Origin: Devosia sp. RR2S18
GTDB lineage: Bacteria; Pseudomonadota; Alphaproteobacteria; Rhizobiales; Devosiaceae
Direction of reading: 5' to 3'
Length of the DNA: 64,000 bases
NCBI RefSeq assembly: GCF_030177755.1
Contig: NZ_CP126539.1
Span: 62,001-126,000 of the forward strand
Below the pieces are notes generated by a model. The model worked only from the letters and a program-made list of their open reading frames with translations, was not told the origin of the DNA and did not search any database. This document shows positions 3,897-19,758 of the stretch, piece after piece; the first letter of the stretch is position 1; each line of letters opens with the position of its first letter. The translations under genes were made by a program, and so were the position numbers.

Positions 3897-4964
3897 CTAA
3901 GCCGCAGTCGCTGGCATCGCCGATCCCTCGGCGTCAAAGAGGTGCACCAGTTGGGGGTCGATATAGGTGGTCACTGTCGAACCCAGTTCCACATGACGCT
4001 GTCCTTCGAGCACGATGTTTACCGGTTGCCCATCCAGCGTTGTCGCGTAGACCACCGTCTGGCCACCAAGGTTCTCCACGAGATCCACCCGCACATCGGC
4101 AAGCCGGACACCTGAACCTTCACCTACAGTGATGTGCTCGGGACGAACGCCCAAAGTCGCCGCCCCTGCAACCGAGCGCGGCAGATCAACTAGGCTGCCG
4201 GCAGTCCGGAGCGAGGAGCCCTCGGCACTGGCGGTCAAGAAGTTCATCTTGGGCGAGCCGATAAAGCCGGCCACGAAGATATTGCGCGGATTGTTATAGA
4301 GCTCGAGTGGCGCGCCGGCCTGCTCGATGATGCCGGAGCGTAGGACCACAATTTTGTCGGCCATGGTCATGGCTTCGACCTGATCGTGCGTCACATAGAT
4401 CATGGTATTCCCGAGATCATTGTGTAGCTTGGCGATCTCGACGCGCATGGCCACGCGTAGTTCCGCGTCGAGGTTGGAGAGCGGTTCATCGAACAGGAAG
4501 ATGCGTGGCTCGCGCACGATGGCACGCCCAATGGCTACGCGCTGACGCTGCCCACCCGAGAGCTGCTTTGGCTTGCGCTTGAGCAGCGGCTCGATCTTGA
4601 GGATCTCGGCAGCCCGCTGCACCCGCTTTTCGATCTCGGGCTTGGGCATCTTTGCCGTTTCGAGCCCGAATGCCAGGTTCTGGTAAACATTCATGTGCGG
4701 GTAAAGCGCATAGCTCTGGAACACCATGGCGATGCCGCGCTTGGCTGCCGGCACCTCGTTCATGCGCTGGCCATCGATCACGAGGTCTCCCCCGGTGATC
4801 GGCTCAAGGCCGGCAATCATGCGCAGCAGCGTGGACTTGCCGCAGCCCGAAGGACCCACAAACACGGTGAACTCACCCGGGTTGATCTGGAGATCGACCT
4901 CATGGATGACCTCGACATCCCCATAGGCTTTGACGAGCTTGCGCAGTTCGATGCTGGTTGCCAT
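3897..4964 (-). CDS. sugar ABC transporter ATP-binding protein (UgpC/MalK/ThuK family)
   Basis: The 355-aa ATPase has all motor motifs: Walker [10 protein letters not shown] (37-45), signature LSGGQ (135-139), Walker B FLFDEP (156-161) and H-loop His193 in VTHDQ. A C-terminal regulatory OB-fold (TOBE) region follows from about residue 240 (GVRPEHI), as in MalK/UgpC, so the full length matches the family. It energises import by the permease pair at 7155-8982. It is the last gene of the minus-strand operon, 9 bp after the dehydrogenase at 4974. Substrate specificity is set by the binding protein, so the gene name cannot be decided from this subunit. Confidence 0.92.
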
Positions 4965-4973
4965 GTTGACCTC

Positions 4974-6059
4974 CTATGCGGCCCGGAACTGGGCGGGAAC
5001 CCAGCTCTCGTAAAGCGGATGCCCCGGCCCCAAAGGCAGGGCGACGTCCTCGTGGGTCGTCGATGAATGGTAGAATGCCGTCACCAGTTCAAGCGAGCGG
5101 CGGGAATCGGCGCTGGTGACCGGCAGGGGTGCCTTGCCGACGAGTGCATCATGAAACCGGGCCATCTGCGTCTCAAAGCGCGAGGGGACGTGCTGCCATT
5201 CCTTGAGTAGCTCCTCGATCTTTGCTGCGGTTTCCTCGTTGCGAGCCTGGATCTTCCAGAGCTTGTCGCCAGGATTGTAGGCCGCATGGTCACTTTCGAT
5301 GGTGACATTCTCGAAGGCGAGGCGAATGCGGGTGGTGTCGTCGGCCGATCCGAGCGTGGCGGTGAAGCTCGCCAGGGCACCGCTCTTCATCACCAGCGAA
5401 GCAGTGATGGTGTCTTCCACTTCGATGGGGTTGACGCGGGTGGCGACGCGTCCGAACACCCGTTCGATGTCGCCCATGAGGTAGGTGAAGATGTCGTGCG
5501 GGTGGATGGCGTGGCCCATCAGCACGCCACCAAGTTCGGTTGCCCACTTGCCGCGCCAGGGTACCGCATAATAAGGCGCATCGCGCCGCCAAAAGGTTTC
5601 CACCGTGCCGGCGAACGGCTTGCCGGCGATGCCGGAGTCGATGATCTTCTTGGCCTGCTCGATGCCATTGCCGAAGCGGTACTGGAAGACCGGCATCAGC
5701 ATGCCCTTGGAGACCTTCTCCTGGGCGATAACCTCATCAACCTCGGCCAGCGATCCGACCAGTGGCTTTTCACACACCACGTGCTTGCCCGCTTTCAGCG
5801 CCGCCATGACCATGGAAAAGTGTAGCCCGGGTGGCGTGCAGATATCGATAATGTCGATATCATCCATGGCGAGCACATCATCAAAGCTGGTCTCGCGGCG
5901 CTCAATATCAAACTCGTCGGCGATGGGGTCCATGCGTTCACGGTTGAGATCGCAGAGCGCCAGAACCTTGAACTTGTCCGCATTGGGCTTGTAGCCCTCC
6001 ACGATATGCGAGCGGCCAATGCCGCAGCCGATAATGGCGACGTTGAATACCCGGCTCAT
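4974..6059 (-). CDS. Gfo/Idh/MocA family oxidoreductase (first of an adjacent pair)
   Basis: The 361-aa protein has an N-terminal NAD(P) Rossmann fold (VAIIGCGIGRSHIVEGY), the family EKP motif (VCEKPLVGS) whose Lys is catalytic, and a C-terminal sheet with GGVLMGHAIHPHDIF carrying the active-site His. Family members oxidise or reduce cyclic polyols and sugars, often at C3. The ATG at 6059 overlaps the TGA of the upstream dehydrogenase (ATGA), so translation is coupled and the two enzymes probably work together; this overlap decides the start over longer in-frame possibilities. It is followed after 9 bp by the ABC ATPase gene. Confidence 0.9.
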   Translation of the reverse strand: MSRVFNVAIIGCGIGRSHIVEGYKPNADKFKVLALCDLNRERMDPIADEFDIERRETSFDDVLAMDDIDIIDICTPPGLHFSMVMAALKAGKHVVCEKPLVGSLAEVDEVIAQEKVSKGMLMPVFQYRFGNGIEQAKKIIDSGIAGKPFAGTVETFWRRDAPYYAVPWRGKWATELGGVLMGHAIHPHDIFTYLMGDIERVFGRVATRVNPIEVEDTITASLVMKSGALASFTATLGSADDTTRIRLAFENVTIESDHAAYNPGDKLWKIQARNEETAAKIEELLKEWQHVPSRFETQMARFHDALVGKAPLPVTSADSRRSLELVTAFYHSSTTHEDVALPLGPGHPLYESWVPAQFRAA

Positions 6060-7072
6060 TGTTCCCACTCCGTGCCCTTTTCGGCCAACTGCTGCGCCGT
6101 CAGCGCCAGCTTCATGGCATTGTAGCAACGCTCCTGCGGCATGGCCGTTTCGGTACGGTTGCGGACGTCGTCGAGGAACTGGCGGCCGAACGGCAGTTCG
6201 GTGCCCGAGCAGTCAATGTGGCGCGGACCTTCATTGTTGACGATAAAGAGGTGATCGGTGCCCGGGCGGCCGGCAATGTCGATATATTTCCTGAGCTCGA
6301 TATAGCCTTCGGTGCCCAAAATGGTCAGGCGACCATCGCCCCAGGTAGGCAGCCCCTTGGGCGTGAACCAGTCGACGCGAATATAGCCTGAGGTAGAGGC
6401 ACTCTTAAGGTGCACGTCGCCGACGTCCTGCAGGCCTGGCCGATGCGGATTGGCACGGTTGGCAACGCTGGCCGAGACCACCTCCGCATCCATGGCATCG
6501 GAAAAGAATAGGAACTGCTCGAACTGGTGGCTGGCGATGTCGGTGAGGATGCCGCCATAGCTTTCCCGGGTAAAGAACCAGTCCGGGCGCGGATTATTGT
6601 TGAGGGCGTGCGGTCCCAGTCCCACCGTGTTGATCACCTGGCCGATCGCGCCCTGCTTGATGAGATTGCCGGCTTCCACCGTCGCCCGCACCTCGAAATG
6701 CTCAGAATAGAGCACAGAATAAATCCGGCCGGTCTCTTTCTGCACCCGCTTGATTTCTTCAAGCTGGGCGAAGGTGGTCATGCCGGGCTTGTCGGACAGC
6801 ACGTCCTTGCCATGCTGCATGGCGGCAATTGAGATAGCCGCACGATCAGCAGGGATGGCTGCGGTTGCCACCACCGAGATCGTCTTGTCCTCGAGGATTT
6901 CCCTGGGATCACTAACGCGCCTCGCTTCAGGGAACTTGGCGCTGAACTGAGCCGCCAGATCATCTTCGACGGCGTGAAAGGCCACGAACTCGGCGCCAGC
7001 GTCCTTGAGGCAGTTCACCTGCCCATAGATGTGGCTGTGATTGATGCCAATGGCGGCAAACTTGATGGTCAT
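6056..7072 (-). CDS. Gfo/Idh/MocA family oxidoreductase (second of an adjacent pair)
   Basis: The 338-aa protein shows the same fold in a divergent version: N-terminal FAAIGINHSHIYGQ replaces the glycine-rich GxGxxG, and the EKP motif is changed to DKP (LSDKPGMTT). The C-terminal domain has YGGILTDIASHQFEQF with the expected His. The loss of a canonical dinucleotide glycine motif suggests altered cofactor handling or a tightly bound NAD(H). It lies directly upstream of, and overlaps, the next dehydrogenase gene. It is 80 bp downstream of the permease gene, so it belongs to the same ABC operon. Confidence 0.87.
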   Translation of the reverse strand: MTIKFAAIGINHSHIYGQVNCLKDAGAEFVAFHAVEDDLAAQFSAKFPEARRVSDPREILEDKTISVVATAAIPADRAAISIAAMQHGKDVLSDKPGMTTFAQLEEIKRVQKETGRIYSVLYSEHFEVRATVEAGNLIKQGAIGQVINTVGLGPHALNNNPRPDWFFTRESYGGILTDIASHQFEQFLFFSDAMDAEVVSASVANRANPHRPGLQDVGDVHLKSASTSGYIRVDWFTPKGLPTWGDGRLTILGTEGYIELRKYIDIAGRPGTDHLFIVNNEGPRHIDCSGTELPFGRQFLDDVRNRTETAMPQERCYNAMKLALTAQQLAEKGTEWEQ

Positions 7073-7154
7073 AGACTGTAGCCTTGAAGAAAACTTGGGG
7101 TCGGAACCGGCAGGGAGCGCTTGGACGCACCCTGCCGGATCGCGGAGGGAATCC

Positions 7155-8045
7155 TCACCGCTTCATTCCGGTTGTTGCGATGCCTTCAATAAGCAGTCGC
7201 TGGAAGAACAGGAAGAAGAGGAAGATCGGAACGAGGCTGAGCACGCTCATGGCGAAGAGGCCGCCGAAGTCGCTTTCACCCGTGGAGTCGGTAAAAGTGC
7301 GAAGCCCCAGCATCACCGTGTATTTGCGCATCTCGTTGAGATAGATGAGCGGCCCGAAGAAATCGTCCCACGTCCAGATGAAGGTGAAGATGGCGGCCGT
7401 CGCCAGCACCGGCATCGAGAGGGGCAGGATGATCTTCCAGTAGATGCGCCAAGGCGAACAGCCGTCCATTTGCGCCGCCTCATCCAGCTCGCGCGGCAGG
7501 CCACGGAAGAACTGCACCATAAGGAAGATGAAGAAGGCGTCGGCCGCCAGGAATTTCGGGATGATCAGCGGCAAGAAAGAGTCGATCCACCCCAGCTGCC
7601 GGAACAGCACGTATTGCGGGATCAACGTCACTTGGTAGGGCAGCATCAGGGTCATCAGCATCATGGCGAACCAAAAGCCGCGGCCACGGAACTCCAGCCG
7701 AGCAAAGGCGAAGGCTGCCATGGAGCAGGCCAGCACGTTGCCGCAGACCGATAGGCCCGCGATGATGAAGCTGTTGGTGAAGAACACCCCGAAGCTGGTG
7801 CGCAGTCCATTCCAGCCGCGGATATAGGAGTCGATGCTCCAGGCGGATGGGATGATGGAGGCGGAGGTGAATATCTCGTTTTCCGGCCGGAAGGATGCCG
7901 CCAGGAGCCACAGCAACGGATAGAGCATCGCCACGGAGGCAGCTAGCAACAGCGCATGGACGACAATCGACTTGATGCGCCGCTGGGTGGGTGAAATCTG
8001 CTGGCCGGTGACTACCGTCAGCCCTTGAGGAGCCTCAGTCGTCAT
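7155..8045 (-). CDS. carbohydrate ABC transporter permease, MalG-type
   Basis: The 296-aa membrane protein has about six hydrophobic segments, beginning with IVVHALLLAASVAMLYPLLW near residues 20-40, and the EAA loop DEAAQMDGCSPWRIYWKIIL near 200 that docks on the ATPase. The C-terminus (FLFFLFFQRLLIEGI) is typical of MalG-type subunits. The start at 8045 overlaps the 3' end of the partner permease by 11 bp and gives the normal family length; a longer in-frame start would add a non-conserved proline/serine-rich leader. Acts in the inner membrane with the permease at 8035. Confidence 0.92.
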   Translation of the reverse strand: MTTEAPQGLTVVTGQQISPTQRRIKSIVVHALLLAASVAMLYPLLWLLAASFRPENEIFTSASIIPSAWSIDSYIRGWNGLRTSFGVFFTNSFIIAGLSVCGNVLACSMAAFAFARLEFRGRGFWFAMMLMTLMLPYQVTLIPQYVLFRQLGWIDSFLPLIIPKFLAADAFFIFLMVQFFRGLPRELDEAAQMDGCSPWRIYWKIILPLSMPVLATAAIFTFIWTWDDFFGPLIYLNEMRKYTVMLGLRTFTDSTGESDFGGLFAMSVLSLVPIFLFFLFFQRLLIEGIATTGMKR

Positions 8046-8982
8046 AGTGCACCCAATACTTGCTGGTGAAGAAGGAGAAGGCGGTGAAGACGGCCACGAG
8101 AGCCAGCAGCACCCAGGCAAGGGCTGAGGCATAGCCCATGCGGAAGAAACCGAACGCCTCTTGGTAGAGATAGAGCGTGTAGAACAGCGTCGAGTTGATC
8201 GGATTGCCGGTGCCGCCCGATATGATGAAGGCCGGCGTGAAGCTCTTGAAGGCTTCGATGGTCTGGATGATGGCGTTGAAGAACACTACCGGGGTCAGGA
8301 GGGGCAGCGTGATCTTGAGGAACTGCCGCCACTTGCTGGCACCGTCGAGGCTAGCTGCCTCGTACATATCCTGCGGGATCTGCCGCAAGCCGGCGAGGAA
8401 GATGATCATGGGCGAGCCGAACTGCCAGATCGAGAGGATGATCAGCGTCCAGAGTGAATAGGACGGATGCGAAATCCAGCTCGGGCCTTGAATGCCGACC
8501 AGCGCCAGAAGCTTGTTTACGAGACCGTCACCGGCAAAGATCTGCCGCCACAGAATGGCGATAGCGACCGAAGCGCCGAGCAGACTTGGTAGATAAAACA
8601 ACGCGCGATACAGCGGCAGGCCCTTGATGCCCCGGTTGAGCAGCATGGCGACGGCCAGCGCGAAAGCGAGCTTGAGGGGCACCGAGAAAATAACGAAGAA
8701 CATGGTCACGCGCATCGACGCCCAGAATTTGGGATCGTTGGTGAACATGCGGATATAGTTGTCGGCGCCGACCCAGTCTGGCGACGTCAACAGGTCGAAA
8801 TCGGTGAAGCTGAGATAAAAGGACGAAATAATCGGCCCAATGGTCAGCCCAAAAAAGCCGATGAACCAGGGCAGAAGGAACAGGTAGCCCGGCGCGTCGT
8901 TCTGCCAAATGCGCGACCAGATTGAAGGGCGGGGCGCGGCGGTTTGTTCCGCCCCAGTCATTGTGGTGGTTCCCATCGCCAT
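8035..8982 (-). CDS. carbohydrate ABC transporter permease, MalF/UgpA-type
   Basis: The 315-aa product has a first transmembrane segment at GYLFLLPWFIGFFGLTIGPI, several further segments, and the EAA loop YEAASLDGASKWRQFLKITL that couples to the ATPase. DFDLLTSPDWVGADNY after the first segment is the usual periplasmic loop of MalF-type permeases. It pairs with the MalG-type permease, with which it overlaps by 11 bp. It lies 159 bp downstream of the binding-protein gene; that gap has no obvious promoter or terminator, so it is probably an intra-operon spacer that allows higher binding-protein levels. Confidence 0.92.
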   Translation of the reverse strand: MAMGTTTMTGAEQTAAPRPSIWSRIWQNDAPGYLFLLPWFIGFFGLTIGPIISSFYLSFTDFDLLTSPDWVGADNYIRMFTNDPKFWASMRVTMFFVIFSVPLKLAFALAVAMLLNRGIKGLPLYRALFYLPSLLGASVAIAILWRQIFAGDGLVNKLLALVGIQGPSWISHPSYSLWTLIILSIWQFGSPMIIFLAGLRQIPQDMYEAASLDGASKWRQFLKITLPLLTPVVFFNAIIQTIEAFKSFTPAFIISGGTGNPINSTLFYTLYLYQEAFGFFRMGYASALAWVLLALVAVFTAFSFFTSKYWVHYDD

Positions 8983-9141
8983 GGACTATCCTCCCAGTCT
9001 GGGGGTCGAGACGACTGCGTCGGAAAGGGCTGTGCCGACATCGGCCAGCGAAAGCTGACGGCGCAAGAAGGTCATGACGTCACCAAGAAAATCGTCGGAA
9101 ACGAACTGCGCGCCCCAGGGCCTGGAGCGCGCAGTCTGGTT

Positions 9142-10422
9142 TTAACTAGCCGCGCGGTTCAGGATGGCAGTGGCTTCGTCGACGAAGTACTGGCCAGCAT
9201 CCTCTGGAGAGCGGGCGCCGAAGGCCACTTCCTGGCTCAGCGTACGCAGCAGCGAGATGTCGATCTCGCCGGCAGCGGCCGGCGGCGGCGGCGGCAGCGG
9301 CCCAAGCAGGTCGCCCAGGTTCGACACGAAGTTGAGCGCGATCTGGTTCTGCTCGTCCAGCGTTGGCGCAACGGCTTCACGGACGCTCTGGGAAACCGGC
9401 ACACCGCGCTCGACACCCAGGATTTTGCCAGCTTCCACGTCGTTGACGACGAAGTTGACGAAGGCCGCAGCCGCTTCGGGATTGTTGTTGCCAACCGAGA
9501 AGAACATGGACGGCTTGCGGTAGTGACCCCCGCCGACGCCTTCGGCAAAGCGTGGGTAGCCGATCATATCCAAGCGGTCCTGCATGAGAGCCTGGTAGCC
9601 GACGAGCTGGTTGGAGTTGGACGGCATCAAAGCCGACTTGTTGAGCACCAGCATGGTGGTTTCCAGCGGGCCGGTATCGAGCGCCTGATCTTCAGGGCTA
9701 ACGATCACACCGGCTTCGCGGAAGTCGTTCCACATGGTGAACCAGTTGGTCATGTCCTCAGCCGTGAAGCCGAGTTGCCCATCAGCGGTGTAGAGCGACT
9801 TGCCCTGCTGACGCAGCCAGTTGTCGAGCATCGGCTCGGTACCCGAGTTGTCGGGCATCATCTTCATCCCGTTACGGATATTGGCTTCCGCGAAAGCCTT
9901 GCCCTTTTCCATGATGTCATCATAGGTCCAGTCACTGGTCGGCGGCTCGATGCCGGCTTCCTCGAAGGCTGCCGTGTTCACCAGCGTGGCCACGGTGTTA
10001 GCGCCGAGGGAGATGCCATAGAGCTTGCCGTTGACCTTGCCGGCCTCGAGCTGGTCTTCGTCGAAGTCGGAGACGTCCAGCACGCCGCCTACATAATCGT
10101 CCAACGGCGCAATGGCGTTACGGTTGGCGTATTCAACGATGTAGCGATAGTCCATTTGGATGATGTCGGGCGCGTTGCCGCCCGCAGTCTGGGTCGCCAG
10201 CTTAGGCCAGTAGTCGTTCCAGGAGAGGAACTCTCCTTCGACATTAGCCTCGTCGTAGAGATCGGTCACCCGATAGGTGCGGTCGGCACGATCCTGGCCG
10301 CCCCAGAAGATCAGCCGAAGATCGGTACTCTGCGCCCAGGCTGGGACAACGCCAAAAGCGCCGACAGCGGCAAGCGCCGAACTGCCCATCAGAAACTGAC
10401 GTCGATCGATACGAATTGTCAT
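9142..10422 (-). CDS. ABC transporter extracellular sugar-binding protein (Tat-exported)
   Basis: The 426-aa protein begins with a twin-arginine signal, DRRQFLMG, followed by a hydrophobic stretch and AWA cleavage site near residue 31. The mature part (LRLIFWGGQDRADR, then GGNAPDIIQMDYRY) is the family-1 solute-binding fold used for sugars and sugar-like ligands. GGGAGG upstream of the ATG at 10422 fixes the start. It is the first gene of a six-gene minus-strand operon (binding protein, two permeases, two Gfo/Idh/MocA dehydrogenases, ATPase). Tat export suggests the protein folds in the cytoplasm before secretion. An operator-like palindrome lies 74 bp upstream. Confidence 0.92.
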   Translation of the reverse strand: MTIRIDRRQFLMGSSALAAVGAFGVVPAWAQSTDLRLIFWGGQDRADRTYRVTDLYDEANVEGEFLSWNDYWPKLATQTAGGNAPDIIQMDYRYIVEYANRNAIAPLDDYVGGVLDVSDFDEDQLEAGKVNGKLYGISLGANTVATLVNTAAFEEAGIEPPTSDWTYDDIMEKGKAFAEANIRNGMKMMPDNSGTEPMLDNWLRQQGKSLYTADGQLGFTAEDMTNWFTMWNDFREAGVIVSPEDQALDTGPLETTMLVLNKSALMPSNSNQLVGYQALMQDRLDMIGYPRFAEGVGGGHYRKPSMFFSVGNNNPEAAAAFVNFVVNDVEAGKILGVERGVPVSQSVREAVAPTLDEQNQIALNFVSNLGDLLGPLPPPPPAAAGEIDISLLRTLSQEVAFGARSPEDAGQYFVDEATAILNRAAS

Positions 10423-10495
10423 GTATTTTCCTCCCATGAACATGTGGTCTTCCCGGCGGGAACTTGTGCAACCAAGACAGCCTCCCCGCCGCTAA

Positions 10496-10511
10496 GTCAC
10501 CAACCAGTTAC
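10496..10511. promoter_or_regulatory. operator-like palindrome, copy A of GTMAC-N6-GTKAC
   Basis: GTCAC-CAACCA-GTTAC, preceded by TAA, lies 74 bp upstream of the ABC operon. The same element recurs at 15545 and 16423 in front of the other island units, which is why it is read as a shared operator. The 307-bp divergent region (10423-10729) also holds two other dyads, listed separately. Confidence 0.65.
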
Positions 10512-10520
10512 AAGGCGTAG

Positions 10521-10554
10521 CATACAAGCTCGAAGCGAGCAACAATCTTGTATG
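10521..10554. promoter_or_regulatory. inverted repeat CATACAAG-N18-CTTGTATG
   Basis: Perfect 8-bp arms at 10521-10528 and 10547-10554 flank a spacer that itself starts with GCTCG-AAG-CGAGC. It lies between copy A of the shared operator and lysR. It may be a second regulator's site; the regulator is unknown. Confidence 0.45.
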
Positions 10555-10687
10555 GTAGCCCCGCCGTTCGAAATTCCTCATAAGCTGCGGGTACTTCGGA
10601 TCTTCTGCCCGATTGTGCCGCAGCGCTTTATCAACGGAGCTTGATCGAAGCAGAGCAAAAAGAAAAATACGAAATTGCCCATGCAAT

Positions 10688-10702
10688 ATAGATGGTATCT
10701 AT
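10688..10702. promoter_or_regulatory. LysR-type box (T-N11-A) upstream of the lysR-family gene
   Basis: ATAGAT-GGT-ATCTAT is a perfect dyad and contains T-N11-A (T10689 to A10701), the LysR-family consensus. It ends 27 bp before the regulator's ATG, the usual place for an autoregulatory site. Confidence 0.6.
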
Positions 10703-10729
10703 GGCCGGCGCTTTTGCAGGAGGGGACGC

Positions 10730-11653
10730 ATGGACAAGTTGCTGACGCAGTTTCTCGCAGTGGCTGAGGCCGGCAGCATCAGTGGCGCAGCAACGGCGCT
10801 GTTCGTCACCCAGCCCACGCTTACCTTTAACATGCGCAAGCTCGAGGAGACCATGGGCGTGCCGCTATTGGTGCGTTCCTCGCGCGGGGTCGAGCTTACG
10901 GCGTATGGCGAAACGCTCTACCAGAACGCCCGCCTCATGCGCCGCCTCTACGACAACACGCTCAAGACGATCGAGCACCAGCGTGGTCGCACTGAGCAGG
11001 GCCTATCCATCGGGTCCGGCTATTCGTGGTGGACCCTCTTTATCCGCGACATGGTGGTGGACTATTCCGGTCAATACCCGAGCGCCCGCATCCATGTGAG
11101 CCTGGGCAACCAACTCCGCTGCATGGACCAATTGCTCTCGGGCGACATATCCCTTTTCGTCGCGCACGAGATCGAGGGGCTCAACCGCAGCACCGGCGCG
11201 CGCTTCCTTCCGTTGAGCCGGGTTGGTCTTGGCTATTTCGTGCGCGCGGGGCATCCACTCCTTACGCAATCTCGGTCCTTGAGCGAGATCGAGATCTATC
11301 CCGCTGTCACCAGTTCCATGCCCGAAATCCGGCACCAGCGCTTTTTCGAGACGTGGAGCCGGACAACGGCCGCCAGTGCAGCGTTTGATCAGGGCAAATA
11401 TGCCTTTGCATCCAATTCACTCGCCGCCTGCCTCGATTATGTCGAGCGCACCAATGCGGTGCTCAGCCACACCGAGGTCATGGAGGCGGAGTTCCGCCAG
11501 CGCGGCCTGGCGCGTGTTGTGGTTACGGAGCCAACCCGGCAGAGCAATATCGGCATATATGTGCTGGCGGAGCGCGCCGAAGACCCTCGCGTGTCCGAAC
11601 TGATCGCCTGGTTGCAGCGCGCTGCGGAAAAGGTCTTGCCGCCGCTGAGCTGA
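10730..11653 (+). CDS. LysR family transcriptional regulator
   Basis: The 307-aa protein has the N-terminal winged helix (FLAVAEAGSISGAATALFVTQPTLTFNMRKLEE, residues 8-40) and a C-terminal periplasmic-binding-like effector domain (from about 90). AGGAGG upstream of the ATG at 10730 fixes the start. It is divergent from the ABC operon, the typical arrangement for a LysR activator of its neighbour, and has a LysR-type box just upstream. The small-molecule inducer is unknown but is probably a substrate or intermediate of the island. It ends immediately before the convergent TetR gene, with no spacer. Confidence 0.93.
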   Translation: MDKLLTQFLAVAEAGSISGAATALFVTQPTLTFNMRKLEETMGVPLLVRSSRGVELTAYGETLYQNARLMRRLYDNTLKTIEHQRGRTEQGLSIGSGYSWWTLFIRDMVVDYSGQYPSARIHVSLGNQLRCMDQLLSGDISLFVAHEIEGLNRSTGARFLPLSRVGLGYFVRAGHPLLTQSRSLSEIEIYPAVTSSMPEIRHQRFFETWSRTTAASAAFDQGKYAFASNSLAACLDYVERTNAVLSHTEVMEAEFRQRGLARVVVTEPTRQSNIGIYVLAERAEDPRVSELIAWLQRAAEKVLPPLS

Positions 11654-12346
11654 CTAGCTTGGCTTGGTGCGGAGATAATCGAGCACCATCTGCACCGCCT
11701 GCGCTTCCCGCTCCTGCACCATCGCGACTCCAGCGAGATCGCGGTCGAAGATCACCGAGAGCGTTGCCATGTTGGAGACATAAAAAAAGCCGAGCGCCGC
11801 AATGGAGATATAAAGCTGCACCGGGTCGACATCGCGCCGGAACACACCGGCGTCAGCACCCCGCTCCACAATGGTGGTGATCTGCCCCACCAGCGGCGAA
11901 TGCAGCGCCTTGATGTCGGGCATGGTCTTCAGGAACCGGGCGTTCTCGATGTTTTCTGTGCCCAAGAGGCGGGGAAACCACGGATTGGCGAGGAAGTGCC
12001 GGAAGGTGAACCGCACCAGCCGGTCCATGGCCTGCACGGGGTCATATTGGTCAAGGCTCAAGGCCCGCTCGCCTCGCCTGATCTCGCCATAGGCGTCCAG
12101 CAGCACGGCGCGATAGAGGTCCTCCTTGTTGCCGAAATAATGGTAGAGCAGACGCTTGTTGGCGCCCGCCCGCTCGGCAATGGCATCCACCCGCGCGCCC
12201 TCGAAGCCCCGCTCGGCGAACTCGGCCCGGCCAGCGACAAGGATAGCCGCTTTCGTCTTGGCCGAATTGCGCGATCGCTTGGGCGAACTGGGGTCAGCCT
12301 TTGGCTGCCGCGTCCGCGCCACCGCGACTGAAGATGGCTCTGACAC
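11654..12346 (-). CDS. TetR family transcriptional regulator
   Basis: The 230-aa protein has a TetR helix-turn-helix: KAAILVAGRAEFAERGFEGA, then VDAIAERAGANKRLLYHYFGNKEDL (residues 53-77), and a variable helical ligand domain with a C-terminal TetR_C motif. There is no ATG; GTG at 12346 is the first start and a second GTG at 12322 is possible. Either start overlaps the 3' end of tctA (53 or 29 bp), so it is co-transcribed as the fourth gene of the tct operon. Being inside the operon makes it the leading candidate to bind the GTMAC-N6-GTKAC sites. Confidence 0.9.
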   Translation of the reverse strand: MSEPSSVAVARTRQPKADPSSPKRSRNSAKTKAAILVAGRAEFAERGFEGARVDAIAERAGANKRLLYHYFGNKEDLYRAVLLDAYGEIRRGERALSLDQYDPVQAMDRLVRFTFRHFLANPWFPRLLGTENIENARFLKTMPDIKALHSPLVGQITTIVERGADAGVFRRDVDPVQLYISIAALGFFYVSNMATLSVIFDRDLAGVAMVQEREAQAVQMVLDYLRTKPS

Positions 12347-13817
12347 GCCTGTTTACCGCCGGAATGGACATAAGGATGACTGTGAAAACGACCAGCGCAA
12401 TAACAGCACTGATCGGACGGGTAAAGAATGGGCTCGGATCCCCATTGGTCAGCATCAGCCCACGTCGCAGGTTGAGGTCGAGCAAATCGCCCAGGATGAT
12501 GCCGAGCACCAGGGGCGCCATGGGATACTTCATTTCGCGCAGGATGAACCCGATAACGCCGAAGGCCAGCATCACATAGACGTCGAACATGCGCTGGGTG
12601 ATTGCGAAACTGCCAACCACACAGAGCACATAAATCACCGCCATCAGCCGCTCGCGCGGCACCCGCAGCACCTGGATGAAAAGTTTGGTCAGGGACAACC
12701 CAAAGATCAGATTGGCCAGGGTCGCCAGCAGCAGCATGGCCACGACCTGATAGAGGAAGGACGGGTTCTCCACCATCAGCATCGGTCCTGGCCGCACGCC
12801 GTGAATATACATGGCGGCGATCAAGACGGCTGCGGCGGCAGATCCTGGCAGCGCCAGGGTCAAAGTGGGGATCATCGCCGCTGAGACCACCGCGTTGTCA
12901 CCCGTCTCGGCGGCGATCAATCCTTCCTGGCTGCCCTTGCCGAACTCCTCGGGCTTTTTGGACGCGCGCTTGGCCGCGGCGTAAGAGGTCCAGGACCCAA
13001 CATCCTCACCAACGCCTGGGATGATCCCTACAAAGGTGCCGATGATGCCGGACCGAATGATGGTGCGCCAATACTGAAACACCTCGCGCAGTTTGGGCAC
13101 CACGCGGTCATTGACCGCAGCTATAACGCCGCTGGAGTTGCGCTTCATCGAAGACAGGATCTCGGCAAATCCAAAGGCGCCCACCATGGCGGGGATGAGA
13201 TCCACGCCGCCACCCAGTGCGGACACGCCGAAGGTGAAGCGCTGGTGAGCGTGCAAGGTCTCCATGCCGATCATCGCCACCGACAGGCCCAGGATGCCAG
13301 CGATGTAGCCCTTGAGGGGCGTGTCGCTGCCGCTCATCTGGCCCGAGATGATGACGCCGAAAATGGCGAGCCAGAAAAACTCCCAGGTTCCAAAGCGCAG
13401 CGCTGCCTCGGAGAGAAGCGGTGCGATCAATGCCAGAAAGAAAATACCGACCAATGTTCCCAACGACGAAGCCGTGGTTGCCAGGCCCATGGCGAGACCC
13501 GCCTTGCCCTGCTGCGCCAGCGGGTGCCCATCGAGGGCTGCGGCAGCATTGGCAGGAGTACCGGGAATGTTGAGCAGGATGGCGGTGCGGCTGCCACCAT
13601 AGATGGCGCCCAGATAGACGCACATCAGCGTCAAAATCGCCTGGTCGGGTTGCATCTGATAGGTCAGGGTTACGAGCAGCGCCACGCCCATGGTCGCGGT
13701 CAGCCCCGGCAAGATGCCAATGGTTACGCCCAGCAGCGTCGCCCAGATGACGTTGAACAGGGACTGGGGATTGAGAAACTGGGAGATGCCCTGCCCGAGC
13801 AGGATCAGGCCTTCCAT
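12294..13817 (-). CDS. tctA: tripartite tricarboxylate transporter large permease TctA
   Basis: The 507-aa membrane protein has the TctA family motifs: PGLTATMGVALLVTLTYQM near residue 38, YGGSRTAILLNIPGTPANAA near 75-92 and PGVGEDVGSWTSY near 265, in a multi-segment membrane layout (about 10-12 helices). TctA carries the transport path and is driven by the ion gradient. It follows tctB by 9 bp and precedes tetR with overlap, so tctC-tctB-tctA-tetR reads as one operon. Substrates of this class are carboxylates (citrate, tartrate, sugar acids, aromatic acids); the actual one is not known. Confidence 0.95.
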   Translation of the reverse strand: MEGLILLGQGISQFLNPQSLFNVIWATLLGVTIGILPGLTATMGVALLVTLTYQMQPDQAILTLMCVYLGAIYGGSRTAILLNIPGTPANAAAALDGHPLAQQGKAGLAMGLATTASSLGTLVGIFFLALIAPLLSEAALRFGTWEFFWLAIFGVIISGQMSGSDTPLKGYIAGILGLSVAMIGMETLHAHQRFTFGVSALGGGVDLIPAMVGAFGFAEILSSMKRNSSGVIAAVNDRVVPKLREVFQYWRTIIRSGIIGTFVGIIPGVGEDVGSWTSYAAAKRASKKPEEFGKGSQEGLIAAETGDNAVVSAAMIPTLTLALPGSAAAAVLIAAMYIHGVRPGPMLMVENPSFLYQVVAMLLLATLANLIFGLSLTKLFIQVLRVPRERLMAVIYVLCVVGSFAITQRMFDVYVMLAFGVIGFILREMKYPMAPLVLGIILGDLLDLNLRRGLMLTNGDPSPFFTRPISAVIALVVFTVILMSIPAVNRRVRAIFSRGGADAAAKG

Positions 13818-13826
13818 GGTCGGTCC

Positions 13827-14351
13827 TTAAGGCAGTCGCACGAGGAAAATACGTTCGAAGACATAGTGAATGGCGAGGCCCCCAACGAGAGCCACACCCA
13901 ATGCCCAAGCTAGGCTGGAGACCAGCGATTTGCGTGGCGAGGCGAAGTACAGTTCGAACAGGGCAATGAAAGCAAAGATGAAGAGCGCCGACGCTGCCCA
14001 GAACGGCAACCAGCCGAGAAGGACCAGCGTATAGAAGAAGGTCAGCCCAAGAATTGCCCAGACGCGCCTTGCAGCGTCGGACGTCAGCGCCTCACCCAGA
14101 CCGCCCCAGCCACCTGGTCCGGCGAGGCGCCAAGACCGCCAGGCCAGCAAACTGCCGCACAGCACCAGTGCTACACTCAGCGCCATCGGTACGAGCCCAG
14201 GGATGGTCAGGGGATTGATGCGGCGGGCCTCCAACCGATCCATGGTGATGGAAAGGTAGAACATGACCACCCCCAGGCCGATGAGCACGAGAGCTGTCAG
14301 GAAGTCGGCACGTGCGCGGATCGCCTGCTCGCGCTGGTCGGGGAGTAACAT
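13827..14351 (-). CDS. tctB: tripartite tricarboxylate transporter small permease TctB
   Basis: The 174-aa protein has four hydrophobic segments: LTALVLIGLGVVMFYLSI (about 18-35), GLVPMALSVALVLCGSLLAW, WAILGLTFFYTLVLLGWLPF and a C-terminal helix. Layout and size match TctB, the small membrane subunit that partners TctA. Sequence is poorly conserved in this family, so the call leans on position between tctC and tctA. The start at 14351 gives an N-terminal charged tail before the first helix. Confidence 0.9.
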   Translation of the reverse strand: MLLPDQREQAIRARADFLTALVLIGLGVVMFYLSITMDRLEARRINPLTIPGLVPMALSVALVLCGSLLAWRSWRLAGPGGWGGLGEALTSDAARRVWAILGLTFFYTLVLLGWLPFWAASALFIFAFIALFELYFASPRKSLVSSLAWALGVALVGGLAIHYVFERIFLVRLP

Positions 14352-14405
14352 TTGTCTGCCGCTGTCAGAGAGGTAGCGGCGGCAAGAATGCCGCCGCCAT
14401 GTCGA

Positions 14406-15449
14406 TCAATCGGTGCCGACTTCGGTCCGCGTTTCGCAGTCGATACCGATGGTGGAGGGATCGTTGGCCGCCTCGCCACGCGCAACCGAGGAGCACGCTT
14501 CGAGGATCACGACCGGCATGGCGCGCTCACGCGCTTCCGCACCCATGGAAGGAGCGAAGACCGCGCCGAAGGTCTCGGCGTAGTTGCGCAACTCTTCGGA
14601 GTTCATCACCTCTTCTTCCCAGATGCGGTCCATGGTGGCGACCACCTCGTCAGGCACGCCCGTGGGAATGAAGATGCCGAAATAGTCGGGAGCTAGCTCC
14701 ATGTCGGGCAGCCACTCGGTGATCGGGGGCACCGGTTCAACGCCCTCGAGCACCAGTGGCTCGTCCGAGAGGACAGCCAGTGGTTTCAGGCGACCGCCGC
14801 GGATGAGTTCAGTCTGCTCCACGGCCAGTTGGGTGGTCACCATGGCTTCACCCGAAGCGGTCGCAATCGCCGCCGGGCCGCCACCGTCATAGGTGATCAT
14901 GTTGTAGTCAAAACCGGCTTCGTCGGCGAGAGCCGCGATCGCGGTACCGCCCGAGGAGGTTATGCCCGCTGTGGCAACGGTGATATCTAGTCCACGCTCT
15001 TCGAGTGCTGCCAGCAATTCACCGAAATCGTCGAACTCGCTATCGGCGGGCACGCTCACCACCGGCACATTGGCGACTGACAGATAAATGTGCCAGTCGT
15101 CGATGTCGGTGTCTTCGAGGAGCCCGCTCACCGCATAGGTGGCGTTGTTGGCGATGGCATTGGCTGTCCAGGTGTAGCCGTCACGCGGCGCGTTGAGCAC
15201 TTCCTGGGTGCCGATGGCGCCTGACGCACCCGGCTGGTTGACCACCACGACTTCGACGCCGAGCGCCTCGGCCAGAATGGGTGCGGTGACGCGGGTCACC
15301 TGGTCGGTTGAACCACCGGCGCCCCACGGCACGATCAGATTGATCGGCCGGTCCGGCTGCCATTCATATTCCTGCGCGATGGTCAGTGACGTACCCAGGA
15401 GCAGCGCCGATGCACTTGCTCCAAGGACAAACCGCATCTTACGATTCAT
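14406..15449 (-). CDS. tctC: tripartite tricarboxylate transporter substrate-binding protein TctC (Bug family)
   Basis: The 347-aa protein has a Sec signal peptide (MNRKMRFVLGASASALLLG, cleavage near TIAQ) and the Bug/TctC core: PDRPINLIVPWGAGGSTDQ near residues 33-51, then NQPGASGAIGTQEV and DGYTW. It captures a carboxylate in the periplasm and delivers it to TctAB. It is first in the tct operon and divergent from the TauE/SafE gene across a 197-bp region that holds copy B of the shared operator. A Cys pair near the C-terminus (ACSS and DCET) could form a disulfide. Confidence 0.93.
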   Translation of the reverse strand: MNRKMRFVLGASASALLLGTSLTIAQEYEWQPDRPINLIVPWGAGGSTDQVTRVTAPILAEALGVEVVVVNQPGASGAIGTQEVLNAPRDGYTWTANAIANNATYAVSGLLEDTDIDDWHIYLSVANVPVVSVPADSEFDDFGELLAALEERGLDITVATAGITSSGGTAIAALADEAGFDYNMITYDGGGPAAIATASGEAMVTTQLAVEQTELIRGGRLKPLAVLSDEPLVLEGVEPVPPITEWLPDMELAPDYFGIFIPTGVPDEVVATMDRIWEEEVMNSEELRNYAETFGAVFAPSMGAEARERAMPVVILEACSSVARGEAANDPSTIGIDCETRTEVGTD

Positions 15450-15544
15450 CTTGATCCTCCCTCTCTATGGACGGAGCCGGCTATTATTGTGCTCTGGCTC
15501 GCCAGGTGAGACTGCGGCCGGCCGGCGCATCTGTCAACCGGTAA

Positions 15545-15560
15545 GTAACCGACTGGTGAC
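15545..15560. promoter_or_regulatory. operator-like palindrome, copy B of GTMAC-N6-GTKAC
   Basis: GTAAC-CGACTG-GTGAC, preceded by TAA, lies 96 bp upstream of tctC and 87 bp upstream of the divergent tauE-like gene. In reverse complement it reads GTCAC-CAGTCG-GTTAC, matching copies A and C. Confidence 0.65.
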
Positions 15561-15646
15561 AGGCGGCGGAACCCTTCAACCGCAAGCAGAGGTGACAATG
15601 ACTTGGCTGCGGTCTATCGGTGGCACCGCTCAGTGAGGGTGCGGAA

Positions 15647-16387
15647 ATGGACTGGTCGGCAATCCTGGTGATGTTCGCGGCGCTGGCAGCGGGCGCCGTG
15701 GTCAAGGGCGCGACCGGCATGGGGCTGCCGCTTGTCGCGCTCCCAGTACTGACGTCAGTTTTTGGGCTCCAACACGCGGTCGGCCTGATGACCATCCCCC
15801 TGATCCTCACCAATGCCTGGCAGGTCTGGCGCTTCCGAGCAGAGGCGCAGAGCCCGCGACTGGGCTTCATGCCGGTGTTCCTCGTCGCCGGAGCCGTCGG
15901 CATTCTCCTCGGCACCTGGGCACTGACCGCCCTTCCCGAAAGGGTGCTGATCCTCACCTTGGGCATAATCCTCCTGTTCTATGTGGCCCTACGCTTGGCC
16001 GCGCCGCACTGGACGCTCACCCTCTCGCTGGCGAAGCGCCTCAGCCCCTTTACAGGCGTTGGCGGCGGCATCCTCCAAGGGGCGACCGGCATCTCGGCCC
16101 CGATCGGCGTCACCTATATCCATGCCATGACGCTCGACCGCGATGCGCATGTCTACGCAGTCTCGGCCATGTTCCTGGTGTTTTCTACCATCCACCTGCC
16201 GTCGCTCTGGGTCGCTGGCATCATGCGGCCGGACTGGGTGCTCCAAGGCTTCTTCGCACTGGTGCCGATCCTCCTGTTCATGCCCTTGGGGCAGGCCCTC
16301 GCCGGCCGGCTCAGCCGCAAGGCCTTTGATCGGATGATCCTGGTTTTCCTGGGACTGATCGGCCTCAAAATGGTGCTAGGCCTCTAG
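15647..16387 (+). CDS. TauE/SafE family membrane transporter
   Basis: The 246-aa protein is almost entirely hydrophobic, with about seven or eight helices, and carries the family repeats GAVVKGATGMGLPLVALPVL (about 17-36) and GGGILQGATGISAPIGVTYI (about 140-160). This family (DUF81) exports sulfite, sulfonates and other organic anions. GAGGG 8 bp before the ATG at 15647 fixes the start. It is divergent from tctC and shares a control region with it; a transport role for a product or anion of the island is inferred, not shown. Confidence 0.9.
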   Translation: MDWSAILVMFAALAAGAVVKGATGMGLPLVALPVLTSVFGLQHAVGLMTIPLILTNAWQVWRFRAEAQSPRLGFMPVFLVAGAVGILLGTWALTALPERVLILTLGIILLFYVALRLAAPHWTLTLSLAKRLSPFTGVGGGILQGATGISAPIGVTYIHAMTLDRDAHVYAVSAMFLVFSTIHLPSLWVAGIMRPDWVLQGFFALVPILLFMPLGQALAGRLSRKAFDRMILVFLGLIGLKMVLGL

Positions 16388-16422
16388 ACGCTTGACGACA
16401 CCAGCCTTCTGGATGTAGCTAA

Positions 16423-16438
16423 GTAACTAACCAGTTAC
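16423..16438. promoter_or_regulatory. operator-like palindrome, copy C of GTMAC-N6-GTKAC
   Basis: GTAAC-TAACCA-GTTAC is the most symmetric copy (perfect 5-bp arms). It lies 31 bp upstream of the dehydrogenase gene at 16469, a position where a bound repressor would block initiation. It begins with TAA like the other two copies. Confidence 0.7.
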
Positions 16439-16468: not shown

Positions 16469-17620
16469 ATGGCAGAGCAACGACTTGGCCTCATCATGCA
16501 TGGGGTCACGGGCCGCATGGGTTACAATCAGCACTTGGTGCGCTCGATCCTGGCGATCCGCGATCAGGGCGGCATCGCGCTCAGCAATGGCGATCGTCTG
16601 CAGGTCGACCCCATCATCGTGGGCCGCGATCCCGACAAGATCCAGCGCCTGGCTGAAAAGCACAACATCAAGCGCTGGAGCAGCGATCTCGACGCCGCCC
16701 TCGCCGATCCCGATGACACCGTGTTCTTTGACGCCGGCACCACGCTGATGCGCGCCAGCCTGATCGAAAAGGCGTTGGCGGCCGGCAAGCATGTCTATTG
16801 CGAGAAGCCGACCTCGGACAGCCTCGAGATCGCCGTCAACCTCGCCAAGACCGCCCGCGCCTCTGGTCTCAAGCACGGGGTGGTGCAGGACAAGCTGTTC
16901 CTGCCCGGCCTGATGAAGCTCAAGATGCTGCGCGACAGCGGCTTTTTCGGCGACATCCTCTCGGTGCGCGGCGAATTCGGGTATTGGGTGTTCGAGGGCG
17001 ATTGGCAACCCGCCCAGCGTCCCTCATGGAACTACCGCAAGGGCGACGGTGGCGGCATTATTCTCGATATGCTCTGCCACTGGCGCTATGTGCTCGACAA
17101 TCTTTTCGGCGAAGTGCAGGCGGTCTCGTGCCTGGGTGCCACGCACATTCCCGAGCGCGTCGACGAGAAGGGCAACCGCTTCAAGGCCGACACCGATGAC
17201 GCGGCCTATGCCACGTTCGAACTTGAAGGCGGCATTGTCGCCCAGATCAATTCGAGTTGGACGACCCGCGTCCGCCGTGACGATCTGGTCACGTTCCATG
17301 TCGACGGGACGCATGGTTCGGCCGTAGCGGGCCTCCACAAGTGCTGGACGCAGCATCGCGTGAACACGCCCAAGCCGGTGTGGAATCCCGACCAGCCACA
17401 AACCATGAACTTCTTCAACGATTGGGAAGAAGTGCCGGACAACTGGCCCGCCCAGAACGGCTTCAAGGCGCAATGGGAAATGTTCCTGCGCCATGTCGCC
17501 GAGGATGCGCCTTGGCCTTATGGGCTCGAGGCCGGTGCCAAGGGCGTACAGCTCGCCGAGCTGGGCCTCAAGAGCTGGGCAGAACGTCGCTGGCTCGACG
17601 TGCCCAAGCTGGAGTTTTGA
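16469..17620 (+). CDS. Gfo/Idh/MocA family oxidoreductase (third in the island)
   Basis: The 383-aa protein has an N-terminal NAD(P) domain (GLIMHGVTGRMGYNQHL), the catalytic EKP (YCEKPTSDS, around residues 110-118), and a C-terminal domain with GGGIILDMLCHWRYVLDNLF containing the active-site His. It is longer than the two dehydrogenases in the ABC operon and is not a close copy of either. It leads a plus-strand unit with the DUF993 and isomerase genes, suggesting that it oxidises a sugar or sugar acid before cleavage or isomerisation. The start was chosen for its GGGAGGGG upstream and family length. Confidence 0.9.
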   Translation: MAEQRLGLIMHGVTGRMGYNQHLVRSILAIRDQGGIALSNGDRLQVDPIIVGRDPDKIQRLAEKHNIKRWSSDLDAALADPDDTVFFDAGTTLMRASLIEKALAAGKHVYCEKPTSDSLEIAVNLAKTARASGLKHGVVQDKLFLPGLMKLKMLRDSGFFGDILSVRGEFGYWVFEGDWQPAQRPSWNYRKGDGGGIILDMLCHWRYVLDNLFGEVQAVSCLGATHIPERVDEKGNRFKADTDDAAYATFELEGGIVAQINSSWTTRVRRDDLVTFHVDGTHGSAVAGLHKCWTQHRVNTPKPVWNPDQPQTMNFFNDWEEVPDNWPAQNGFKAQWEMFLRHVAEDAPWPYGLEAGAKGVQLAELGLKSWAERRWLDVPKLEF

Positions 17621-17626
17621 CCTAGC

Positions 17627-17760
17627 GTCCCCCTCACCAGCCCTTTGGGCACCCTCTGCCACGACGGGGAGAGGGGGACGTCCGAGTTTCAACGAGCGCC
17701 AGCTTCCCTTCTCCCCCTGCGGGAGAAGAGGGCGCGCAGCGCCGGATGAGGGGAAAGCCC
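17627..17760. repeat. intergenic palindromic repeat mosaic between the dehydrogenase and DUF993 genes
   Basis: The spacer contains an inverted repeat CTTCTCCC-CCTGC-GGGAGAAG (17708-17728) and a wider pair TCCCCCTC / GAGGGGGA that frames its first half. The tail GCGCAGCGCCGGATGAGGGG resembles common intergenic repeats of Hyphomicrobiales. No T-run follows. It may stabilise or process the operon transcript. Confidence 0.7.
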
Positions 17761-17764
17761 GCCC

Positions 17765-18934
17765 ATGACCATCATCAACCTGCCCAATGCCGACCGCTCC
17801 ATCAGCCCCTATCAGCTGACGGGCGAACCCATTCCGTTTGTCCGACACAAGGCCAGCGACTTCCCGCGCATCGCTTATGCGGCGGCCCACGTCGTTGCGG
17901 ACCCGCTCGCCAGCAACGATCCATGGCTCACCCCGGCGATCGACTGGGATACCACGCTCCAGTTCCGCCACCGGCTTTGGGATCTCGGCCTCGGCGTGGC
18001 CGAAGCCATGGACACCGCCCAGCGCGGCATGGGCCTCACCTGGACCGATGCGCAGGAGTTGATCCGTCGCGCCCAGCTCGAAGCCCGCACCCGCGAGGAT
18101 GCCCTGATCGCCTATGGCGCGGGCACCGACCATCTCGCCCCGGGCCCCGATGTCACCATCGACCAGATCATCAAGGCCTATGAAGAGCAGGTCGGGTTTG
18201 TCGAAGGTCAGGGCGGCCGCGTCATCCTGATGGCCAGCCGCGCCCTGGCGGCTGCCGCCAAGTCGCCCGACGACTACGCCCGCGTCTATGGCCACATTCT
18301 CTCGCAGGTGAAGCAGCCCGTGGTTATGCATTGGCTGGGCGAAATGTTTGATCCGGCCCTTGAGGGTTATTGGGGCAAGGCCGACCACACCGAAGCCATG
18401 GATGTCTGCCTCGACGTCATTGCCGCGCATGCCGATAAGGTCGACGGCATCAAGATCTCGCTTTTGTCGGCGGAAAAAGAAATCACCATGCGCCGTCGCC
18501 TGCCCGCATCGGTCAAGATGTATACTGGCGACGACTTCAACTATGCCGAACTCATCGCCGGCGACGACCAGGGCTATTCCCATGCCCTGTTGGGTATTTT
18601 CGACGCCATCGCACCGGCGGCCTCGGCTGGCCTGGCGGCCCTGGGGACGGGCAACACCACCGAGTTCTTCGACCTGCTCGAACCGACTGTGCCGCTCAGC
18701 CGCCATATCTTTGCGGCGCCCACCCGGTTCTATAAGACGGGCGTGGTGTTCCTGGCCTATCTCAATGGCCTGCAGGACCATTTCACGATGATCGGCGGCC
18801 AGCAATCGACCCGCTCCTTGCAGCACCTGGCCGAACTCTTCCGTCTCGCCGACCAGGCACGCGTGCTTGCAGATCCCGAACTGGCAGCGCTCCGCATGGG
18901 TGACGTGCTGGCGGTCCATGGGGTTTCGGCATGA
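17765..18934 (+). CDS. DUF993 family protein, dihydrodipicolinate-synthase-like TIM barrel
   Basis: The 389-aa protein reads as DUF993: a long N-terminal segment, then a barrel with AYGAGTDHLAPG, QGGRVILMASRAL, QPVVMHWLGEMFDP and DKVDGIKISLLSAEKE. Lys in GIKISLL sits at the end of a strand where class I aldolases of the DHDPS fold keep the Schiff-base Lys, so retro-aldol cleavage is a plausible but unproved activity. GAGGGG precedes the ATG. Its stop overlaps the next start (ATGA), so it is translationally coupled to the isomerase. The pairing with Gfo/Idh/MocA and isomerase genes points to sugar catabolism. Confidence 0.85.
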   Translation: MTIINLPNADRSISPYQLTGEPIPFVRHKASDFPRIAYAAAHVVADPLASNDPWLTPAIDWDTTLQFRHRLWDLGLGVAEAMDTAQRGMGLTWTDAQELIRRAQLEARTREDALIAYGAGTDHLAPGPDVTIDQIIKAYEEQVGFVEGQGGRVILMASRALAAAAKSPDDYARVYGHILSQVKQPVVMHWLGEMFDPALEGYWGKADHTEAMDVCLDVIAAHADKVDGIKISLLSAEKEITMRRRLPASVKMYTGDDFNYAELIAGDDQGYSHALLGIFDAIAPAASAGLAALGTGNTTEFFDLLEPTVPLSRHIFAAPTRFYKTGVVFLAYLNGLQDHFTMIGGQQSTRSLQHLAELFRLADQARVLADPELAALRMGDVLAVHGVSA

Positions 18935-19758
18935 GCGCGGACACGGTCATTTCGCTCAATCTTGCCACCACGCGTGCTCAGTGGGGCTTTGCCGAGGCGG
19001 TCGATGGGTGCTTGCGCGCTGGCATCACTGCTATCTCCCCCTGGCGGGATCAGATCGAGGCCATTGGGCTCGATGAAGCCGCTCGCATCGTTCGTGACAA
19101 CAAGTTGCAGGTGACCGGCGTTTGCCGGGGCGGCATGTTTCCAGCCGAAACCGCCGAGGGCCGGCAGCTCCAGATCGACGACAATCTGCGCGCCATCGAC
19201 CAGGCGGCCGCACTCAATGCCGATTGTCTGGTGCTGGTCGTGGGTGGCCTGCCTGGGTCGTCAAAGGATATCGTAGGCGCCCGGCAGATGGTCAGCGACG
19301 GGATTGCCGCCATGCTGCCGCACGCCAATGCGTCGGGCGTCAAGATCGCCATCGAACCGCTCCACCCCATGTATGCAGCCGACCGAGCCTGCGTGAACAC
19401 CATCGATCAGGCGCTCGACATCTGCGAGGGGTTGGGGGAAACGGTCGGCGTCGCCATCGACGTCTATCATGTGTGGTGGGACCCTTATCTGGCGCGCGCC
19501 ATCGAGCGGGCCGGCCGCATGAAGCGCATCTTTGCGCACCATATTTGTGATTGGCTCGTCCCCACCAAGGATATGCTCCTCGACCGCGGGATGATGGGCG
19601 ATGGGGTCATTGACCTCAAAGCCATTCGCCGGATGATCGAAGAGGCCGGCTTTCATGGCCCCCAAGAGGTCGAGATCTTCAGCCAGGACAATTGGTGGAA
19701 GCGCCCTGGGGACGAAGTGCTCGCCGTTATCAAGGACCGCGTCGCCACTGTCTGCTGA
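18931..19758 (+). CDS. sugar phosphate isomerase/epimerase-like TIM barrel (AP-endonuclease-2 fold)
   Basis: The 275-aa protein has the xylose-isomerase-like barrel with metal ligands in expected order: Glu in KIAIEPLHP, Asp in VAIDVYHVWWD, His in FAHHICDW and Glu in EVEIFSQDN. VTGVCRGGMFP is an N-terminal loop motif. It probably isomerises or epimerises a keto-sugar, possibly one made by the dehydrogenase at 16469. The start overlaps the DUF993 stop by 4 bp (ATGA). It is the last gene of the plus-strand unit and is followed by a strong terminator. Confidence 0.88.
   Translation: MSADTVISLNLATTRAQWGFAEAVDGCLRAGITAISPWRDQIEAIGLDEAARIVRDNKLQVTGVCRGGMFPAETAEGRQLQIDDNLRAIDQAAALNADCLVLVVGGLPGSSKDIVGARQMVSDGIAAMLPHANASGVKIAIEPLHPMYAADRACVNTIDQALDICEGLGETVGVAIDVYHVWWDPYLARAIERAGRMKRIFAHHICDWLVPTKDMLLDRGMMGDGVIDLKAIRRMIEEAGFHGPQEVEIFSQDNWWKRPGDEVLAVIKDRVATVC

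Follow-up and report, generated by a model that had tools for sequence, protein, structure and literature searches.

A conserved inverted-repeat dyad as the putative operator of a TetR-family regulator in a DUF993 gene island of Devosia sp. RR2S18

Operators of TetR-family regulators are palindromic and about 15–17 bp long; that of the family member RutR is TTGACCANNTGGTCAA. The subject here is a set of three related dyads in a catabolic gene island of Devosia sp. RR2S18, together with the TetR-family protein encoded in this island. The genome consists of one contig (C1) of 3,965,430 bases, and the window is the whole stretch of 64 kb that was analysed (C1:62001-126000). RutR is the best NCBIfam match of the island TetR, but at 58.5 bits it stays far under the cut-off of 368, and it is described as governing a TetR regulon of pyrimidine catabolism (PMC5343134), whereas the island genes are not rut genes. 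At the level of the DNA, equal geometry and a similar half-site are found in ATAACC-N4-GGTTAT, the motif that Sinorhizobium meliloti PcaQ is reported to recognise (PMC3557286) and to which a sequence given in PMC5002191 is related. PcaQ, however, is a LysR protein of protocatechuate genes, whereas the island dyad goes with a TetR protein and overlaps the predicted start site of the dehydrogenase gene Gfo1.

On the side of the target genes, a close described system is the S. meliloti cluster SMc04130-SMc04140, in which SMc04130 (PDB 3ju2) is closely related to the island isomerase; the other SMc tags would correspond to island genes one by one. The products of SMc04132, SMc04133, SMc04135, SMc04138 and SMc04139 are reported to form one proteome module, in TY medium only, that is lower without PhaR (PMC12542648). 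This is consistent with shared control of the apparently corresponding genes, although the accessible part of that report describes no operator. SMc04134 is named as a transcription factor in PMC11387232, with nothing further in the accessible text. Literature searches returned no relevant paper on DUF993 (PF06187) and none, judged by title and abstract, on TetR operators in Devosia, on the RutR motif or on the operator described here.

The three dyads are very probably the operators of one TetR-family repressor, whose gene closes the tct operon. They are found exactly where a preliminary description had placed them, at 10496-10511 (GTCACCAACCAGTTAC), 15545-15560 (GTAACCGACTGGTGAC) and 16423-16438 (GTAACTAACCAGTTAC), each directly preceded by TAA on the plus strand, and a scan of the window for a fourth exact copy found none. 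The motif had been written as GTMAC-N6-GTKAC; the dyads are real, but this form understates their arms, since all three share the sharper motif GTMACY-N4-RGTKAC with 6-bp arms and a 4-bp spacer. The units behind them are also those named earlier, namely an ATP-binding cassette (ABC) operon spanning 3897-10443 on the minus strand, tctCBA-tetR divergent from tauE, and a Gfo/Idh-DUF993-isomerase unit.

10496..10511, minus strand: putative operator of the ABC operon, GTAACTGGTTGGTGAC in the direction of the solute-binding protein (SBP) gene, 52 bp upstream of the SBP start
15545..15560, no strand assigned: putative operator between tctC (minus) and tauE (plus), kept with at most one mismatch in 18 of 19 congeners with tctC
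16423..16438, plus strand: putative operator in front of the Gfo/Idh-DUF993-isomerase unit, 30 bp before its ATG, exact in congeners
11654..12346, minus strand: TetR-family regulator (TetR_N and TetR_C_29), last gene of the tct operon, candidate binder of the three sites
9142..10443, minus strand: SBP of the ABC transporter, closest to YesO among solved structures
3897..8982, minus strand: remainder of the ABC operon, with two permeases, two Gfo/Idh dehydrogenases and an ATPase
12294..15449, minus strand: tctC-tctB-tctA, tripartite tricarboxylate-type transporter
15620..16387, plus strand: TauE/SafE family membrane protein
16469..19758, plus strand: Gfo/Idh dehydrogenase, DUF993 protein and xylose-isomerase-like protein

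The regulator combines a helix-turn-helix TetR_N domain with a ligand-binding C-terminal domain (PF00440, 62.6 bits against a cut-off of 24; PF17938, 141.5 bits against 26.2), and a palindromic dyad lies beside tetR and the target genes. Judged by these features, the island appears to be a new TetR regulon of the ordinary kind, attached to an uncharacterised pathway.

A genome-wide motif scan, as the preliminary description had proposed, finds five exact copies of GTMACY-N4-RGTKAC against two of the reversed control. Three of the five lie in the island within 5.9 kb (post hoc Poisson P ~7e-8). The remaining two fall inside open reading frames (ORFs) of 292 aa (transport permease-like) and at least 746 aa (beta-mannosidase-like), as judged from their translations, and exact copies outside such ORFs are thus confined to the island. 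No signal remains once the match is loosened: the genome holds 49 sites with at most one mismatch against 87 for the reversed control, and with at most two mismatches the 5-bp-arm pattern occurs 36 times in the window against 44 expected. Among the 44 one-mismatch sites of the genome, 37 lie in ORFs of at least 100 aa and seven outside. Six of these seven (L014 left out) were considered as further targets and set aside; they are flanked by ftsZ, DsbA-like, 2OG-Fe(II) oxygenase, transposase, NmrA-like and Rrf2 genes, none evidently related to the island, and no fourth target is therefore claimed. The shorter core TAACYN4RGTTA, which two of the three island sites do not fit, has six sites in the genome against 16 for its reversed control. 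These are one in the island, two in ORFs, one beside a TetR paralog, one in the gap between a LysR and a hydrolase gene and one at a distance of some 450 bp from an ORF for a hydrolase. A PcaQ-motif-like dyad with perfect 8-bp arms, GCATAACTGCCAAGTTATGC, stands at C1:3844111-3844130 (L221:1498-1517), with a LysR gene on one side and a hydrolase gene on the other.

The evidence that carries the assignment is comparative. TetR orthologs with 72-91% identity were found in 34 of the 36 congeneric genomes searched (37 genomes of the genus with the present one). The other two, G036 (no TetR match) and G016 (62% complete; a 39% match only), have neither a TetR ortholog nor DUF993 nor exact sites. In the 16-kb regions around tetR (two slightly shorter), compared for all 34 TetR-bearing congeners, the 150 bp in front of the dehydrogenase gene Gfo1 contain an exact site in 33/33 scored cases. 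This becomes 34/34 with L076, which has the exact site and was left unscored in the main count because its dehydrogenase gene is split in tblastn. Where the ABC operon is linked to tetR, the SBP promoter has a site with at most one mismatch within 250 bp upstream in 20/20 cases (exact in 4/20); such a site is also present at tctC in 18 of the 19 congeners having this gene (exact in 4/19) and at tauE in 19 of 20. Furthermore, a site with at most one mismatch within 250 bp upstream of SBP stays with the ABC operon in a further ten of ten congeners in which the operon is unlinked from tetR and the Gfo3 gene lies 14-122 kb away from it. The survey of unlinked operons covered 22 of the 36 congeners and found the operon away from tetR in 11, with the site in 11/11; as G013 also belongs to the linked set, the total is 30/30 congeners, with G024, G031, G033 and G034 left out.

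Across these regions, 112 of the 114 sites with at most one mismatch, and 47/47 exact ones, fall in target promoters that make up 17.8 kb of 651 kb (110 of 112 after deletion of two double-counted sites, L170 overlapping L070); the other two, one-mismatch sites, lie elsewhere. Control patterns with spacers of 2, 3, 5 or 6, or with direct or reversed arms, gave no copies except for a single one-mismatch N2 match. Over the 37 whole genomes, exact sites number 81 against 117 for the reversed control, and the pattern is thus not generally abundant. A chance or non-regulatory origin of the sites, for example as a mobile repeat, would agree with the mismatch-tolerant pattern standing at or under control frequency in the window and the genome. 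Conservation, fixed promoter spacing and near-empty control patterns oppose it, and the flanks of the three sites differ, so that the dyads are not a copied repeat. For practical purposes the concentration in the target promoters of congeners rules such an origin out, and its probability is practically nil.

The association extends beyond the genus. DUF993 loci were examined as the best 80 of at least 591, of which 11 are named Devosia, some being the same genomes as in the congener set. They hold 89 copies of TAACYN4RGTTA, 74 of them in 69 loci not named Devosia, while spacers of 2, 3, 5 and 6 give 0, 0, 1 and 0 copies and the reversed pattern gives five. TetR and core occur together in 53 loci (44 not named Devosia), TetR without the core in 18, neither in eight (five at a contig end) and the core without TetR in one. 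Where both are present, the core is at most 336 bp from the TetR match in 46 of 53. Counting 17 Bradyrhizobium-type variants and the near-match of L145, which has GTAACCAATTGGTGAA beside tetR, a site is present in 71/71 TetR-bearing loci, and the dyad accompanies TetR across rhizobia, Roseomonas and others. Together with its presence in 34/34 TetR-bearing congeners, this supports the earlier proposal of a single regulator for the island, with TetR as the candidate. In addition, DUF993 was found by tblastn in 147 plasmid records.

The variants are informative in themselves. All 17 Bradyrhizobium/Tardiphaga-type loci carry TATCYAACGRGTTA in place of the core (in L150 about 40 bp before the next ORF), and their TetRs share the recognition helix LYYHVG, which is found in no other TetR match that was resolved (L133 was not resolved). 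This joint change of helix and dyad is possibly a natural specificity switch. In two Microvirga loci with the helix LYYYYG one side of the dyad reads TTAAC, and L145 has the helix IYYYF yet GTAAC on one side. Downstream of the TetR gene, TTTATCYAACGRGTTA is conserved in the 17 loci of the Bradyrhizobium/Tardiphaga type (L136, L144, L147, L149-L152 and L155-L164).

The placement of the sites relative to promoters suggests how they may act. All start sites were predicted from promoter hexamers.

16392..16419, plus strand: predicted dehydrogenase promoter TTGACG-N16-TGTAGC, followed by TAA and the operator, which begins 3 bp after the -10
15509..15537, minus strand: predicted promoter of tctC, TTGACA-N17-CAGTCT, which closely follows the operator and is seen in aligned congeners

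TTGACR stands 30-31 bp before the dehydrogenase operator in 34 of 35 genomes, the present one included, and the operator would thus cover roughly -3 to +13 relative to the predicted start. A TetR dimer bound to GTMACY-N4-RGTKAC would thus lie over the start site and block RNA polymerase, as in classical repression. At the ABC operon the nearest site is placed alike in most of the relatives examined, and TetR bound there would also block RNA polymerase. Of 31 distinct ABC promoters (L070 and L170 share one, which is counted once), 20 have TTGAC 28-31 bp before this nearer site, that of the present strain not among them. A pathway intermediate or the substrate would bind the C-terminal domain of TetR and release it from the DNA, so that all units are expressed, and since tetR belongs to the tct operon, the site at 15545 would give autoregulation. 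The sequence itself shows the sites, where they stand and that they are conserved together with TetR; from this we infer that TetR binds them, that it represses and does not activate, that an effector releases it and that it controls its own operon.

The main rival for the sites is the divergently encoded LysR protein, to which a second conserved box may belong.

10730..11653, plus strand: LysR-family regulator, divergent from the ABC operon, with a remote PcaQ-like match under the cut-off
10521..10554, no strand assigned: another conserved box, an inverted repeat CATACAAG-N18-CTTGTATG that the divergent LysR may bind

Binding of the dyads by this LysR was weighed seriously because of the PcaQ motif introduced above, and PcaQ is also its best NCBIfam match, at 90.1 bits far under the equivalog cut-off of 303.8. 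The gene adjoins the ABC operon even where this is unlinked from tetR (10 of 11 loci, one being that of G013). Beside the operon, linked or not, it is 59-84% conserved in Devosia, with genome-wide best matches at 50-83%. However, no LysR ortholog was found at E 1e-50 in genomes G003, G017 and G035 (38 of 41 candidates scored in G003 and 38 of 44 in G035), which keep the sites at Gfo1 and SBP; this bears out the earlier choice of TetR as the best candidate. Likewise, 87 of 120 loci have a TetR match and a site somewhere in the locus with no LysR match in it, many Devosia among them having LysR elsewhere in the genome. Moreover, CATACAAG forms a separate box present in 31/31 SBP promoters and in 0/35 Gfo1 and 0/20 TctC promoters. 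LysR is thus a very unlikely binder of the three dyads, and is probably a second, ABC-specific regulator with a conserved box of its own. In 25 of the 31 distinct SBP promoters the box lies 41-44 bp before the first operator. Its assignment to LysR is weakened by five loci (L056, L057, L077, L079 and L176) that keep CATACAAG with no LysR in the examined stretch. Since PcaQ is itself a LysR protein reported on a dyad of this form, joint use was also considered, and LysR may share the ABC site with TetR.

The ABC promoter of the present strain also departs from most others in its number of sites. Among the 31 distinct ABC promoters, the present one included, 22 carry a pair of sites at a distance of 86-101 bp. 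Here there is one. The CATACAAG box precedes it by 43 bp, which matches a distal site, while the SBP start follows at 52 bp, which matches a proximal one; the two sites appear to be collapsed into one. L076 and L078 likewise have a single ABC site with the CATACAAG box at 43 bp. The single site may be a loss in this strain, or the two sites a gain elsewhere. A more elaborate and rather doubtful scheme would have one TetR work in two modes set by operator position, blocking the start site at the ABC and dehydrogenase promoters and acting near -51 at tct as an activator or as a two-sided tct/tauE switch. In this scheme, paired ABC operators about 96 bp apart would loop in relatives and be collapsed here to a single site under LysR co-control.

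Another rival places the regulator outside the island, for example in a TetR paralog of 36% identity that is encoded at C1:3825725, close to shikimate-dehydrogenase-like genes. A TAACYN4RGTTA dyad lies 40 bp from the end of the paralog gene, whose neighbours include a shikimate-dehydrogenase-like gene and an AP_endonuc_2 gene. This dyad, TTAACTAAACGGTTAG at C1:3826427-3826442 (L212:2428-2443), also has an isomerase-like gene near it. Its outer base is, however, T (TTAAC, not GTAAC), the paralog helix SKRMIYYYF differs, and the 4-4.5 kb loci of the three congeneric paralogs examined contain no dyad of this kind. The closeness of core and TetR match in 46 of 53 DUF993 loci likewise argues for the local regulator, and control from elsewhere is very unlikely.

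Several observations weigh against assigning the dyads to the island TetR as a repressor. Because a related dyad lies beside the paralog, cross-binding by the latter is possible. L129 has a site, preceded by a hydantoinase-like gene as read from its translation, and no TetR match in the locus, while L082 and L085 have distant TetRs (49% and 42%) and no site; L075 has only a two-mismatch site before tctC. The helices LYAHFG, IYEYFG, IYYYFG and others vary while the site stays GTAAC-like. As these and L145 keep GTAAC, only in the Bradyrhizobium type have helix and operator clearly changed together, and this may be a single event in one clade, related species not being independent. With respect to repression, the tct operator lies upstream of the -35 with its centre near -51, which is not the simplest position for a repressor. 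In 16 of the 19 genomes with the site, the present one among them, 7 bp separate the tct operator from the TTGAC that follows it, and this upstream placement makes the mechanism at tct less certain. Finally, no TTGAC precedes the ABC site in this strain, where the promoter is only weakly predictable.

As to the pathway, the SBP is nearest to YesO and then to other sugar-binding proteins, and the one solved relative of DUF993 has no function assigned to it; the gene content suggests that a sugar or sugar acid is taken up and oxidised. A flavin monooxygenase gene (2336-3562) adjoins the ABC operon, with ArsO as its nearest NCBIfam match (312 bits; the cut-off of 425 is not reached). Several enzymes of the DUF993 set have solved relatives that also lack an assigned function (4dnh, 3oqb, 3ju2 and 3u3x). 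The three dyads and the island TetR are thus likely to define the regulon of the DUF993 cluster, a catabolic gene set of rhizobia, Devosia and relatives that is widespread and unstudied. With regulator, operators and targets named, the inducer, and hence the substrate, should therefore be findable by a simple binding or reporter screen.

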